A stretch of DNA of 64,000 nucleotides from Occallatibacter riparius (lineage in GTDB: Bacteria > Acidobacteriota > Terriglobia > Terriglobales > Acidobacteriaceae), in assembly GCF_025264625.1 (NCBI RefSeq), contig NZ_CP093313.1:6448001-6512000 (forward strand), given 5' to 3'. A program made the translations under genes and the position numbers. Shown in pieces: positions 5,601-61,998 of the stretch. The notes beneath the pieces were generated by a model. It was not told the origin of the DNA and did not search any database. It saw only the letters and a list, made by a program, of their open reading frames with translations. How positions within the stretch are numbered: the first letter of the stretch is position 1; each line of letters begins with the position of its first letter.

Positions 5601-5707
5601 TGCTCTCGAGTGCACTCACGCACCATGGCCGACCGCAGTTGCTTTCGCGTTACTTTCAGGCTAGGTGGTAATCCGCCCGCAGTCAGGTTCATGATGGCCG
5701 AGGTGGA

Positions 5708-6184
5708 CTAACGCGGCTCATGGGGAATGGGGCAGATTGCCTGCGTGCCGGGGTCCGTCTGACCGCCCACTGGAGCAAAGCGACCGTCTGGTTCGCGCAC
5801 GAGAAACATCAGGTAGGAGCTGCGGTTCGACACCTCAGACGGATCGAATCTGACGAGCGACGGTCCGTTCATCCTTGGTGTGTCGTCTGTTTCTCGGTAG
5901 TGGCGAAGTGTGAATCGTTCGGTCGCTGGATTCCCTTTGAGGACAGCAGAAACGGCGAATACAGTGTCTACCCCAATGACCTCGACTTTGCTTCGCCTTC
6001 CCTCTGAGTCCTGCCGAGCGATGCCGGGCAGAACCGATCTCTCTTTTGTGTCCTCTGTTTTGGTGACCGGGTTGGCAATTACCACGAGGTCGGATTTGGC
6101 CAACATCTCTCGATAGCTGAGAATGGAGACAAGCCTCGCTTGTGCTGGCTCAGGCATCACGCACATCAGAGATTGTCGCCGCAC
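5708..6184 (-). CDS. Hypothetical protein, possibly with a damaged N-terminus
   Basis: About 158 aa. The body reads like a real protein: SYREMLAKSDLVVIANP, VSAVLKGNP, YLMFLVREPDGRFAPVGGQTDP. I do not recognise a named family. The N-terminus is odd: the only in-frame starts are a GTG at 6184 or internal ATGs, giving MRRQSLMCVMPEPAQA, which looks like a poor signal peptide ending AQA. A frame next to it starts MAKSLTFLSGAAT with a better hydrophobic profile and stops at once, which suggests a frameshift inside a former signal peptide. Base composition is less GC-rich than the neighbours. It lies head-to-head with leader cassette A. Confidence 0.55.
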   Translation of the reverse strand: MRRQSLMCVMPEPAQARLVSILSYREMLAKSDLVVIANPVTKTEDTKERSVLPGIARQDSEGRRSKVEVIGVDTVFAVSAVLKGNPATERFTLRHYRETDDTPRMNGPSLVRFDPSEVSNRSSYLMFLVREPDGRFAPVGGQTDPGTQAICPIPHEPR

Positions 6185-6322
6185 CAGATAGGAATGTGAG
6201 GCTCTTCGCCATACGTGTCCAGCTGGTATTCACGACGTGCATTTTAGACGGGTTCTGGGCCATGGTCGCCACATGCCGGAAGTTGGCATGACCACTTGCA
6301 TCCAGCCAACCCTCTGAAATCC

Positions 6323-6511
6323 TGTCAAGCCCCTCACCTGTGGAAAAAAGACCTAACCAGCTCATTCCAATCACCACAAAATGTGGAAAAATAATTGCGA
6401 ATTACGAATCAAATCTGCCATACTTGATATAGAGAAGAAAAACGAATGCCCGCCGGCCAACGGTGGGCATTTTCTTTTGCTCGCAATCCTGCTCTCTAAA
6501 GGGAGTTCTCC
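6323..6511 (+). promoter_or_regulatory. Leader cassette, copy A (twin TTTTCCACA boxes, hairpin, RBS)
   Basis: This 189-bp block aligns along its whole length with 57722-57533 (minus strand). Shared landmarks in order are TGTCAAGCCCC; a first TGTGGAAAA at 6339-6347; CCTAACC; a second TGTGGAAAA at 6382-6390 inside CAAAATGTGGAAAA; TAATTGC; an A/T-rich promoter-like stretch; a hairpin with GGGCATTTTCTTTTGC; and a purine-rich RBS (AAAGGGAG) before ATG 6512. The box-to-box distance is 43 bp in both copies. TTTTCCACA fits the DnaA-box consensus TTWTNCACA, but an unrelated regulator could bind it. Confidence 0.75.
6445..6478 (+). terminator. Attenuator-like hairpin in leader A
   Basis: An 11-bp stem AATGCCCGCCG / CGGTGGGCATT (one G-T wobble), loop GCCAA, followed by TTCTTTT. 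It lies 34 nt upstream of the ATG of the small ORF and inside the presumed transcript, so it looks like an intrinsic terminator within a 5' leader. Confidence 0.65.
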
Positions 6512-6643
6512 ATGCACCTAGCCGACGAAATCACCGCCCCCCACACCCCGGAGCTGCGACCCACGCGCCAACTCGACAAAAGACGGACCTACGCACACAC
6601 CAGCGAGCGCCGCAAATTACGGCTACTCGATGGGAGTAACTAA
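6512..6643 (+). CDS. Small basic protein (43 aa) behind leader A
   Basis: The ATG has AAAGGGAG six bases upstream, and the leader continues into it in the same way as in the second cassette. The product begins MHLADEIT, is rich in Arg/Lys/His and ends LLDGSN. The only similarity I see to the other cassette protein is the DEIT at residues 5-8, which could be chance or a conserved start region after which this gene has decayed. No domain is recognisable and no signal peptide or membrane segment is present. It may be a functional small protein or a remnant. Confidence 0.5.
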   Translation: MHLADEITAPHTPELRPTRQLDKRRTYAHTSERRKLRLLDGSN

Positions 6644-6921
6644 CCTGCTACTGTGTTTACTAGAAAATTAGCTACCCCTCCCCCTGTTTTTACTTCTCCA
6701 TTTATTCGCCAAAAATTGGGTCAAACCCTAGACTCTATTTCAGATACGTGACTACAAAATCCCATAGGTCAAGAACAAGTCGTCGTAACAACTAAATCTA
6801 TATTGTATTTATCAGTAAACATCCCAAAAGTCCGGCTCGATGTCGGGCTTCCGCAGACACACCTGTCGTAGCCACCAGCCAGAATTCGCACTCGAACTGA
6901 CACGTGCAGCCCGCGTATTTT
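6644..6921. other. AT-rich intergenic stretch without a gene
   Basis: After the small ORF, roughly 6650-6830 is clearly more AT-rich than the surroundings (for example TCTATATTGTATTTATC). No ORF, inverted terminal repeat or RNA gene could be supported. It may be the 3' flank of the leader-A locus or a mobile-element scar. Confidence 0.5.
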
Positions 6922-7425
6922 CTAGGAAAGTAATCCTCGCGCCTTAGCTTCCGCAACCGCCGGAACCCGCCTTAGCACCTGCGTCAGCGTCAGGGTCAGC
7001 AGCCCCACCACCGGGATCGCCAGCAGCAGCCACGCCAGCAGCGCCTGCCCCGCCATCACACCCAGTTGCGCAGCCACACTGCTTGAAGCATGCATCAATT
7101 GCATCGGAGACTGCGCCAGCGCCGAGAAATCAAGCGCAGCATGCGTCGCCGGCGCCAGTTTCCCGCCCAGCCGCGCGAACGGAACAATCAGCGCCAACTG
7201 GAACGGCATCGCCGCATAGTTGGCCGCCTGAATCGCCGGCAGATTGAGCCGGAACACGACCGCCAGTACCACGCAGAGCCCCGTCGGCACTCCCACCAGC
7301 GGAATGCACCCCAGCACAAACCCGAGAGCGAGCGTCAGCGCCAGCCGCTGGGGCGAGATGCCCTCCAGCAGCCACGCCGCCGCCCTCTTCTTCATGCTTT
7401 CGAAGGTGTATGCCGTGGGCTTCAT
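6922..7425 (-). CDS. DUF2062 membrane protein
   Basis: A 167-aa protein that matches DUF2062 in layout: a short N-terminal segment, then GISPQRLALTLALGFVLGCIP, a first hairpin of membrane helices (residues ~25-60), a second membrane pair near 65-85, and a long C-terminal membrane segment (~120-150). RLNLPAIQAANY is the family's conserved loop. The function of DUF2062 proteins is not established. AAAGGTAG precedes the ATG. It is transcribed in the same direction as the upstream punA-udk pair but separated from it by about 130 bp. Confidence 0.78.
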   Translation of the reverse strand: MKPTAYTFESMKKRAAAWLLEGISPQRLALTLALGFVLGCIPLVGVPTGLCVVLAVVFRLNLPAIQAANYAAMPFQLALIVPFARLGGKLAPATHAALDFSALAQSPMQLMHASSSVAAQLGVMAGQALLAWLLLAIPVVGLLTLTLTQVLRRVPAVAEAKARGLLS

Positions 7426-7557
7426 GTCTATCTACCTTTACGCATATAGATGCTCAGTGGATTCAACACCGCGTGAAACTTTTAAGTTGCGTACCAACTT
7501 GAACAGCACCGTAGTAATGTGGCGCGCGAACGCAATCCGTGACACCAACGAGCGGTC

Positions 7558-39332: not shown

Positions 39333-39408
39333 TGGTGGACGCGGAAGGAATCGAACCTTCAACCTGTCGGTTAAGAGCCGAATGCTCTGCCAGTTGAGCT
39401 ACGCGTCC
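39333..39408 (-). tRNA. tRNA-Lys (CTT)
   Basis: A 76-nt cloverleaf on the minus strand: acceptor GGACGCG/CGCGTCC, D-stem GCTC/GAGC, anticodon loop CTCTTAA giving anticodon CTT (reads AAG), T-arm GAAGG-TTCGATT-CCTTC, discriminator A and encoded CCA. The top pair of the anticodon stem is mismatched (T-C). Confidence 0.93.
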
Positions 39409-56375: not shown

Positions 56376-56899
56376 TGGAGGCCCGCCACAAATGCCCGGT
56401 TGCACTTCCCGGCGCGGGCTACCCACTCTGCCTCGTGCGCACAGATCGCGTCGGCTGCGCGTTGAATCGATCGCTGCTTGAAGAGGAAGTGGGTATACGA
56501 GGAGGGTGGGGGGGGTCAGGTGTGGCTATGGAGTACTTGACGAGGAGGATGCCGCTGAGCAGGGGGGTGATCGGGAGGGCGGTGCGAGGGTGTGAATGGG
56601 GCCGGTGGTCAGGTGATCAGGTGGTCCGGCTCGTCTTTGGGCAGGCACCTGCGGCGCCATTCTTGCATGGGAGGGGAATGGGGATTTGGGCAGGGATTTC
56701 CTGTCGTGCGTTTGGGCGTGGGGTGAAGCGGCGATTCATGGGCTGGGTGATGGTCCTCTTTTCGCGAGCTGGCGGCACCGGCGGCGCGGCCAAACTGCGC
56801 CTGCGGCGCGGTTCTTGCCTCACCGGGGGGTGGGGGGTACGTCTCTTTCTTCTTACAAGTGCAGCAAGTCAGCGCGCTGCGCGCGAGCGAGCCAGCGAG
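56376..56899. other. 524-bp G-rich intergenic region
   Basis: Very G-rich on the plus strand (for example GGGTGGGGGGGGTC near 56501-56520). It contains a short 7-bp-periodic stretch GTGGTCAGGTGATCAGGTGG (56605-56624) and two fragments resembling the dispersed GCACCTGCGG element (56645-56655, 56780-56815). No gene is supported. It may be decayed repeat material. Confidence 0.45.
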
Positions 56900-57532
56900 T
56901 CAGCGGGTGTGTGCCTGGGGGGGAAGGGGTGTCTTCTTCCAGGGAGTGAGGGGCACCTGATCGATTGGTTTGCCCGCGAGGATCCGCTCGAGCATGACTT
57001 GGACGTGGCTGGTCAAGTCATCCTTTGAGGAGGGCGCCTTCGGTGCTGGTTTGGGCTTTTGCGGTTGTAAGTTGTTGATTGCGCTAGAGGGCGCCGGCAC
57101 CTGCGGTGCGGCCACTGCGGCTTCGCCGACCTTCCTGCCCGGGATGCCATTGGTACTCAGCGGGGAGGGGGTGGGGGTACTCGCCACCTTCTTCGCGTGT
57201 TCGGCCTTTTGGGCGCGGGCTTCTTTGTCGGCTTGGAGGCGGGCGCGGCGGGAGGTGATGGCGACCTGGGCGGCATAGAGCAATTTGGTAGCGTGAGAGG
57301 GGTCGATGGCGCCGATGGCGAGTCCCTGGGCGACGCAGGCTATGAAGGCGTCGACGTTGTCAGGGGTGGAGAGCCACGGGAGGGCCTTGCGGTAGGCTTT
57401 GCCGGCGTAGTCGCGCTCCCAGACACCGGGGTCGATAGGGTCCTTGCAGTTTTTGCGAGTGAGGGCTTCGCGCCAGGCGTTGACGCAGCGCTGGACGGCG
57501 GAGTTGACGGTGATCTCGTCGGGTGAAGACAT
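56900..57532 (-). CDS. Unknown protein with leader cassette B (DEIT/RCVNAWREAL family)
   Basis: A 210-aa cytosolic protein, no signal or membrane segment. The N-terminal ~115 residues look folded and helical (NSAVQRCVNAWREALTRK, YRKALPWLSTPDNVDAFIACVAQGLAIGAID, KLLYAAQVAITSRRARLQ). The rest is a low-complexity Pro/Ala/Ser/Lys linker, ending with a short helix-like segment DDLTSHVQVMLERILAGKPIDQVPLTPWKK. No family or function recognised. The ATG at 57532 follows AAGGAAAT and the leader cassette. Part of the linker (VGEAAVAAPQVPA) is encoded by a dispersed repeat sequence. Confidence 0.7.
   Translation of the reverse strand: MSSPDEITVNSAVQRCVNAWREALTRKNCKDPIDPGVWERDYAGKAYRKALPWLSTPDNVDAFIACVAQGLAIGAIDPSHATKLLYAAQVAITSRRARLQADKEARAQKAEHAKKVASTPTPSPLSTNGIPGRKVGEAAVAAPQVPAPSSAINNLQPQKPKPAPKAPSSKDDLTSHVQVMLERILAGKPIDQVPLTPWKKTPLPPQAHTR
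57096..57128. repeat. Dispersed GGCACCTGCGG element inside a coding sequence
   Basis: A 33-bp stretch starting GGCACCTGCGGTGCGGCC is almost identical to 61852-61885 (one inserted base). Here it encodes part of the linker of the protein behind leader B. A shorter match follows the zinc-ribbon gene at 12558-12576. Confidence 0.62.
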
Positions 57533-57722
57533 AGGAATTTCCTTTGAAAGCGGATTTTTGGGCAAAAGAAAATGCCCGCCGGATTGGTGTCCGGCGGGCA
57601 CTGTTTTTGCTCCTATTAATAGGCTAGCAAATTGGAACAGTAATCGGCAATTAGTTTTCCACATTTTGGAGTGAGTAGATTCATCGGGTTAGGCCTGTTT
57701 TCCACAGGAAGGGGGCTTGACA
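57533..57722 (-). promoter_or_regulatory. Leader cassette, copy B (twin TTTTCCACA boxes, hairpin, RBS)
   Basis: 190 bp on the minus strand homologous to 6323-6511. In transcript direction: TGTCAAGCCCC; first TGTGGAAAA (57706-57698), within CCTGTGGAAAACAGG, which is nearly palindromic; CCTAACC; second TGTGGAAAA (57663-57655); TAATTGC; A/T-rich stretch; hairpin; TTTTCTTTTGC; AAGGAAAT; ATG 57532. Box spacing is again 43 bp, and the first box lies 173-174 bp before the ATG in both copies. Confidence 0.75.
57564..57600 (-). terminator. Attenuator-like hairpin in leader B
   Basis: TGCCCGCCGG / CCGGCGGGCA, perfect 10-bp stem, 8-base loop. On the minus strand it is followed by TTTTCTTTT and, 31 nt later, the ATG. 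Same position and trailing sequence as the hairpin at 6445. Confidence 0.7.
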
Positions 57723-61851: not shown

Positions 61852-61998
61852 GGCACCTGCGGTGCGGCCAACTGCGGCTTCGCCGCCGAGGCTGGGCGGG
61901 GTTCGTAGTCTCCCACCTTTTTCGCGCAGGAACGCTCTGGCGGCTGGGTTGGGTTCGTGGTTTCCCAAGTCCCAAAACCGGGGACCTGGGGCACCCAT
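61852..61998. repeat. Dispersed repeats, copy C, between lipoprotein and acs
   Basis: Starts with GGCACCTGCGGTGCGGCC (61852 onward, also at 57096), then GCTGGGCGGGGTTCGTAG, CACCTTTTTCGCGCAGGAAC, GGCGGCTGGGTTGGGTTCG and CCTGGGGCACCCATC, which parallels copy B. No coding frame. Confidence 0.62.

Follow-up and report, generated by a model that had tools for sequence, protein, structure and literature searches.

A dispersed promoter- and terminator-like cassette upstream of non-homologous small genes in the Acidobacteriaceae

The window analysed here, a 64,000-nucleotide stretch of the 6.79-Mb single-contig genome of Occallatibacter riparius (G000), carries two copies of a cassette that is dispersed over the chromosome and through the family Acidobacteriaceae. 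The repeat is real, not a product of chance, and more general than a sequence-only reading of the window had supposed. One and the same module, consisting of an upstream element, a promoter-like core and a terminator-like hairpin, precedes gene families without common ancestry, and many copies have no recognised gene behind them at all. The reading favoured here, with somewhat more confidence than doubt, is that of a dispersed promoter-attenuator unit with exchangeable cargo, which has the cassette as its 5′ half.

The two copies lie where the earlier reading had placed them. They start with a TGTCAAG box at 6323 on the plus strand and 57722 on the minus strand and lead to ATG codons at 6512 and 57532, and the order that had been described (boxes, hairpin, GGGCATTTTCTTTTGC, ribosome-binding site (RBS), ATG) was confirmed in both. 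The duplication is genuine: a BLAST search of the own genome with copy 1 recovers copy 2 at 74% identity over query positions 1–186 (E = 2.0e-24). The similarity had been said to end exactly at the start codon and at the ends of the two segments, but a pairwise alignment of the copies, with 72% over 298 nt, begins about 70 nt before TGTCAAG and continues 25 nt past the start of the coding sequence. The same DNA search yields 21 matches at E ≤ 10, and chance is excluded because 15 places, copy 1 included, match at E ≤ 6.7e-13. The features of copy 1 are as follows:

6323–6329, plus strand: TGTCAAG box near the left edge of the module; each column is identical in 56–60 of 60 matches (59 loci) from other genera
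6339–6347, plus strand: TGTGGAAAA box 1, invariant in 14 of 14 aligned own-genome copies
6382–6390, plus strand: TGTGGAAAA box 2, likewise invariant in 14 of 14; absent from the other aligned subfamilies
6395–6400, plus strand: −35-like hexamer TTGCGA, its TTGC invariant in 14 of 14 copies
6416–6424, plus strand: extended −10-like site TGCCATACT, 18 bp past the −35-like hexamer
6444–6480, plus strand: intrinsic-terminator-like hairpin with T-rich tail (leader fold z −3.39)
6498–6505, plus strand: Shine-Dalgarno-like sequence AAAGGGAG
6512–6643, plus strand: 43-aa open reading frame (ORF), its first codons like those of the paralogues
6654–6821, plus strand: 3′ block with inverted TGTTTACT.../...AGTAAACA arms at its bounds, common to five other own-genome copies

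Copy 2 is laid out in the same way on the opposite strand:

57716–57722, minus strand: TGTCAAG box
57698–57706, minus strand: TGTGGAAAA box 1
57655–57663, minus strand: TGTGGAAAA box 2
57645–57650, minus strand: −35-like TTGCCG
57621–57629, minus strand: extended −10-like site TGCTAGCCT
57563–57600, minus strand: terminator-like hairpin with T tract
56900–57532, minus strand: 210-aa cargo gene; residues ~1–110 belong to the LLYAAQ-domain family and the remainder looks low-complexity
56685–56733, minus strand: short conserved stretch past the cargo gene, aligned in seven own-genome copies (L008–L014)

Read from left to right, the left part of the cassette has a short A-rich segment ahead of TGTCAAG and, behind this box, C-rich sequence, TGTGGAAAA (in some subfamilies), a CTAAC-like motif and further A-rich sequence. 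The right part comprises TTGC or TTGGC, a spacer, TGYYANNCT, an ATATAG-like sequence, the hairpin, the T tract and the RBS. The spacer between the −35-like and −10-like sites, 18 bp in copy 1, measures 17–19 bp elsewhere by eye, and TGTCAAG precedes the extended −10-like site by 93 bp in copy 1 (~90 in general). In other genera, the −35-like site is TTGGC-like and less conserved (T 49/59, G 54/59, C 45/59) and the extended −10-like site reads TGctAtaCT (A 55/55, T 54/54), all counted on copies picked by a model that contains these columns. A plain sigma-70 promoter scan of copy 1 returned no promoter. The CCTAAC and CTTG strings may resemble those of integron attC sites or IS91-type ends.

Two models were used to follow the cassette beyond the window. 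R1, a covariance model of 14 copies, was run over 59 genomes of the genus and at E ≤ 0.1 gave 28 matches in the own genome (some of them the hairpin read backwards), 35 in G157, 21 in G154, four in G169 and one each in G162, G193 and G203. R2, which models sequence alone and covers the upstream and promoter region, was made from 52 copies found in three of the genus's genomes, and at E ≤ 1e-4 it finds 24 copies in G000, 42 in G157, 23 in G154, 12 in G158, 21 in G213 and 21 in G162. The pair that had been taken for two copies is two of 24 in its chromosome, and the prospect that no further copies would turn up anywhere is contradicted by this profile-model search, both in the own genome and across the family. 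At E ≤ 0.01, R2 matches 37 of 80 genomes of the genus. At E ≤ 1e-4, it matches 95 of 300 genomes of the family in 35 of 79 genera; the training copies behind this family-wide set come from three genomes of a single genus, themselves among the 95, and the set's copy numbers are at least those found among the best 12 candidates per genome. In a sample of the phylum, which doubles as a negative control of R2, 13 of 199 genomes match (own included), and all of them belong to the same family. In the genomes searched, the cassette is limited to the Acidobacteriaceae.

Simpler searches reached less far. A plain DNA search of 150 family genomes (best five candidates per other genome) gave matches in the own genome alone and missed divergent copies that were later caught by the models, and a related-locus pattern search over named genomes, from which the own genome was possibly excluded, gave 59 pattern matches of which none was confirmed. 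With window positions 5650–7450 as the query, 45 of the 59 genomes of the genus match at E ≤ 1e-8, own included. Among the best five candidates per genome, the matches listed outside the own genome fall on the DUF2062 gene (6922–7425; PF09835) and not on the element, the part of the query covering the element matching own-genome places only. The synteny comparison yielded no base-level empty site because the species are too diverged.

The counts of hairpins, cargo genes and 3′ blocks given below refer to 129 copies, one of which (L231) has less than 1.1 kb of downstream sequence. Left out were 12 partial R2 matches, namely seven of 81 rows (L122, L128, L137, L152, L156, L157 and L158) and five of 60 rows (L248, L250, L262, L270 and a second match in L257), as well as three of 84 loci that had no match (L135, L139 and L159) and the partial 24th own copy (572380–572479). 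By eye, the left-out L122, L248, L250 and L270 have a hairpin with a T tract.

A strict rule that demands a perfect stem and at least five T in nine positions recognises the hairpin and its T tract in 83 of the 129 copies and in none of 129 controls, which are the 85-nt stretches just upstream of the same copies; for the hairpin alone, the strict rule gives 97 copies against 32 controls. The 46 copies that fail the strict terminator test include all five counted from G226 and all five from G292, and the two partial, uncounted G226 copies (L248 and L250) show the hairpin by eye. A looser rule finds it in 28 of 34 copies in G157, 14 of 16 in G154, 23 of 23 in the own genome (L015 doubtful), seven of 11 in G119 and 28 of 45 others. 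The letters of the stem vary and the pairing is retained in these 28 G157 and 14 G154 copies, with 16 and 13 different stems, respectively, numbers that are upper bounds, as some represent one stem cut at different lengths. A change of stem with the pairing kept is the trace that selection for the hairpin, not for its letters, would leave.

The same hairpin could mean that the conserved product is a short RNA running from promoter to terminator, the genes being passengers or absent. Gene-less copies do retain the promoter-like core and the hairpin, and the leader of copy 1 folds better than all 200 of its shuffled versions. However, no Rfam family exceeds the cut-off at the cassette, with gathering or relaxed thresholds (the only Rfam match in the window is a tRNA at 39336–39408), only ~20 variable nucleotides separate the −10 site from the hairpin, and two-sided pair changes among 14 own copies are found at two of 24 pairs, both within the hairpin. 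We hold this alternative to be distinctly unlikely.

A second word, TGTGGAA, keeps mostly to one side of TGTCAAG. In 72 copies from G000, G154 and G157, it lies at most 16 nt before TGTCAAG only (20 copies) or at most 22 nt after it only (35 copies), with one copy having it on both sides and 16 on neither; the Fisher value of p = 7e-7 overstates independence since the copies are related. Outside the genus's three main genomes, 46 of 52 copies have TGTGGAA on neither side. The one-sided placement may provide a lead.

Such boxes bear on two further explanations. The cassette might be the promoter of a regulon and not mobile, with a regulator binding TGTCAAG (with TGTGGAA), genes duplicated in the ordinary way together with their upstream region, and gene-less copies that have decayed. 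The near-invariance of TGTCAAG and the single copy out of 72 with TGTGGAA on both sides agree with this, although the Fisher value is inflated as noted; the cargo, discussed below, weighs on both sides, and we give this reading a rather low probability. Alternatively, the cassette might be a DNA site in which clustered DnaA-like boxes (TTTTCCACA) bind or titrate DnaA or organise the chromosome. The TGTGGAAAA box presumably resembles a DnaA box on the opposite strand, and two such boxes are present in all 14 aligned own copies. However, the scarcity of TGTGGAA outside the three main genomes speaks against such a site, which also leaves the hairpin and the extended −10 site unexplained, and it appears highly improbable.

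Cargo genes were sought with HMMs on the same strand up to 1.1 kb downstream of the 129 copies, the HMMs having been built partly from loci that were later counted. In the own genome, a gene of the LLYAAQ-domain family stands behind 18 of 23 copies. The 16 copies in G154 are followed by five LLYAAQ genes and four genes for ribbon-helix-helix (RHH)-like proteins, one of 34 copies in G157 has recognised cargo and the single copy in G169 has none, and the 55 copies in other genera have seven Zn-finger/LLYAAQ and seven PD-(D/E)XK genes. None of the four families is recognised behind 87 of the 129 copies. On the opposite strand, the cargo HMMs gave no match at any of the 129.

The association was also examined from the side of the genes. 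The LLYAAQ family is present in 37 of 59 genomes of the genus, own included, and 18 of the 19 members in the own genome carry the cassette. The PDDEXK_5 cargo is a Pfam family (PF11645): the gene in L233 scores 71.7 bits against a cut-off of 26.1, and 50 of 51 matches in the PF11645 search exceed the cut-off. At 30 loci fetched out of these 51 matches, the cassette was found upstream on the same strand in 22 (17 at E < 1e-6) and was missing from eight; for Zn-finger/LLYAAQ genes, it was found in 20 of 30 loci, two loci being one split gene, and was missing from 10. Both tests used genomes chosen because cassettes had been found there, and some loci are identical to earlier ones.

The one own LLYAAQ gene without the cassette, L040, is immediately preceded by a phage-integrase-family gene (PF00589, E 9.9e-11). 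This arrangement, an integrase-family gene preceding an LLYAAQ gene, is seen in L040 (473–600; PF00589) and in L057, L058 and L062. In all four loci read, the reading frame of the integrase gene changes to −1 past KELAHPK, close to a conserved CCCAAAA, possibly a programmed frameshift.

The LLYAAQ domain is predicted to form four helices (mean pLDDT 86). A Foldseek search of the predicted domain against the PDB gave 133 matches at E ≤ 10 and none at 0.001, and four LLYAAQ proteins had only weak or sub-cut-off matches in Pfam, NCBIfam and PHROGs, the best being to Rv2743c/PspM, below cut-off; the 210-aa protein itself has no match in Pfam or NCBIfam. The C-terminal half of the LLYAAQ family matches the helical region of Zn-finger proteins from other genera (hhalign probability 89%, E 2.5e-6, 57 columns), and the two kinds of cargo are probably kin on account of this match. 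PDDEXK_5 and RHH-like proteins look unrelated to these classes. The label “RHH-like” is taken from sequence; in a Pfam scan of three such proteins from G154, the best match was DUF6364 at 23.9 bits (E 5.9e-5), against a cut-off of 27.3. RHH-like genes stand behind the cassette in L120, L123, L129 and L130 (G154), and in L135, where there is only a weak R1 match. By eye, no partner toxin was noticed beside the RHH-like genes of G154.

For the regulon promoter, these results cut both ways: the cassette accompanies 18 of 19 own LLYAAQ genes, but from genus to genus this one module stands before gene families that share no ancestor, and 33 of 34 G157 copies lack recognised cargo, yet 28 retain the hairpin. 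The proposal of a regulatory module in front of genes without common ancestry is supported for the LLYAAQ-domain, PD-(D/E)XK and RHH-like families, with none of these at the 87 copies mentioned.

The cassette of the window had also been described as driving two unrelated short proteins, a description that is not supported. The 210-aa product is one of the 19 LLYAAQ paralogues. Between copy 2 and L002, L003 and L014, the upstream DNA is 76–87% identical and the protein 26–36%, which places the stronger conservation in the upstream module and not in the coding sequence. A dispersed repeat, GCCGCACCGCAGGTGCC, occurs at 57096–57112 and 61852–61868 (minus strand, exact) and at 56774–56790 (minus strand, two mismatches), three matches in the window against 0.06 expected, and it is also found, noncoding, in L006. 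The first of these lies in the coding second half of the 210-aa gene, where it is read in AAVAAPQVP, and similar peptides recur in paralogues.

As for the 43-aa ORF, a tblastn search at E ≤ 0.1 of 346 fetched loci found no relative besides itself, and its only Pfam match is below cut-off (bZIP_Maf, E 0.0076). Copy 1 consists of the cassette, ~170 nt with the ORF, and the 3′ block; the own copies L004, L005, L007 and L015 likewise have no LLYAAQ gene. The ORF is probably spurious or the remnant of a lost cargo gene, and copy 1 resembles a copy whose gene has been lost, gene loss being the simplest reading of its state.

Many copies are followed by a second conserved segment. The 3′ block of the own genome, ~170 bp, is found in L001, L002, L004, L005, L006 and L007, after the cargo or soon after the cassette; in copy 1, its arms are 15 nt long and 80% matched. 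With a 3′ model for each genome, a block was detected behind the cassette, in the same orientation, in 30 of 34 G157 copies (eight of the 30 being seeds of the model), eight of 16 in G154 (four seeds), seven of 11 in G119 (five seeds) and six of 23 in the own genome (three seeds). G119 had two weak extra matches on the other strand (L269 and L236), which are expected because of palindromes. The 3′ blocks of different genomes are unlike in sequence, and their position suggests that they are one thing. In G119 and G088 (L236, L237, L244 and L265–L270), the blocks contain a CCCCCGCTAAGT.ATTGAAAACA-like word, which occurs twice, 72 nt apart, in L237 and L244, and also a GGGGATGATCCCC-like palindrome and a G-rich tract.

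Five loci of g34, from five genomes with one match each, adjoin an aconitase gene (PF00330). This is in keeping with a regulon promoter, but the other genomes of g34 have no match or several. In four aligned species, the upstream flank is unalignable, the first 140 bp of the element have 64–88% identical columns and most of the 3′ part has 44–76%; the right edge is not sharp and extends into the aconitase gene. In the copies beside the aconitase gene (L225–L229), a GC-rich stem without a T tract was seen past the −10 site. The alignment and the 3′ blocks favour a two-ended unit over a lone promoter.

The earlier suggestion that the module is mobile is plausible only, there being no transposase noticed in the unit on reading the ORF lists and no target-site duplication. 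In 20 units, the words shared between the two ends, of which the right ones are approximate, were no longer than those of shuffled pairs (563 of 1000 as large). No consistent terminal inverted repeat was found across four units examined: there was none at the ends of copy 2 and L102, and weak 17-nt, 76% inverted pairs in copy 1 (6313–6329/6728–6744) and L121 (312–328/621–637) are mutually unlike. Within the reach of sequence evidence, the reading as a dispersed regulatory module stands.

Under the favoured promoter-attenuator reading, the unit would begin with the upstream TGTCAAG element, followed by a housekeeping-type promoter with a TTG-like −35 and an extended −10 (TGYYANNCT). TGTCAAG is likely the binding site of an activator or of a factor that keeps or moves the element. 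Transcription would start near 6431 in copy 1, and from ~13 nt past the start most copies would present an intrinsic terminator, then the RBS and start codon, and then an exchangeable small cargo gene or nothing recognisable. The unit would often close with a 3′ block made of inverted arms, iteron-like repeats or a T- or G-rich tract. RNA polymerase would meet the hairpin and often stop, so that many transcripts would be ~50-nt RNAs and the cargo would be made by read-through, which would make the cassette a built-in attenuator. The unit would be copied as a whole and the cargo later lost or changed, copy 2 having kept its LLYAAQ-domain gene and copy 1 being without one.

Several known systems share features with this cassette. 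Putative mobile promoters, reportedly described by van Passel, Nijveen and Wahl in 2014, are similar promoter regions before genes without homology. G154, where the cassette appears before both LLYAAQ and RHH-like genes, would resemble them; unlike them, the cassette is family-wide, with strongly diverged copies, constant boxes, a hairpin conserved in its pairing and many gene-less copies. The 2014 work is cited in PMC4261585. Mobile attenuators (PMC2965389) are related terminators before unrelated genes; they fall into clusters confined to a narrow range of taxa and are interpreted as fragments of insertion sequences. The cassette likewise has similar terminators, here predicted ones, upstream of non-homologous genes, but no insertion sequence was recognised in the ORF lists read, the unit includes a promoter-like core and an upstream element, and a 3′ block is frequent. 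Like the RAYT-associated REPINs (PMC8049555), it is a non-autonomous sequence population kept in bacterial lineages; unlike them, it measures ~300 bp or more and has a promoter-like core and cargo instead of a pair of REP hairpins. MITEs are similarly short, dispersed, intergenic (for the cassette, in the copies read) and without their own transposase, but for the cassette no consistent terminal inverted repeat was seen in the four units examined and no target duplication in 20. PDDEXK_5 endonucleases (PF11645) are one cargo family, in seven of 129 counted copies, most of which have other or no recognised cargo. No published report of the cassette was found in the open-licence literature.

More tentatively, and with doubt outweighing confidence, these observations may describe a novel class of small genetic element, in which a promoter-attenuator chassis is paired with a 3′ block and takes exchangeable cargo (nuclease, Zn-finger/LLYAAQ or RHH-like) or none. 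Such a unit would lack a transposase of its own and would have persisted and been amplified anew, independently, in many of the family's genera, its spread perhaps depending on the PD-(D/E)XK nuclease among its cargo or on a recombinase located elsewhere. If this holds, the family would be reusing a single dispersed expression chassis, present in some genomes in dozens of copies, in front of small genes that are not homologous. The common upstream region of groups of small proteins that belong to no known family would then be explained, and one RNA-seq run could test the predictions. The Acidobacteriaceae would thereby offer a natural experiment on the spread, decay and upkeep of promoters and terminators.
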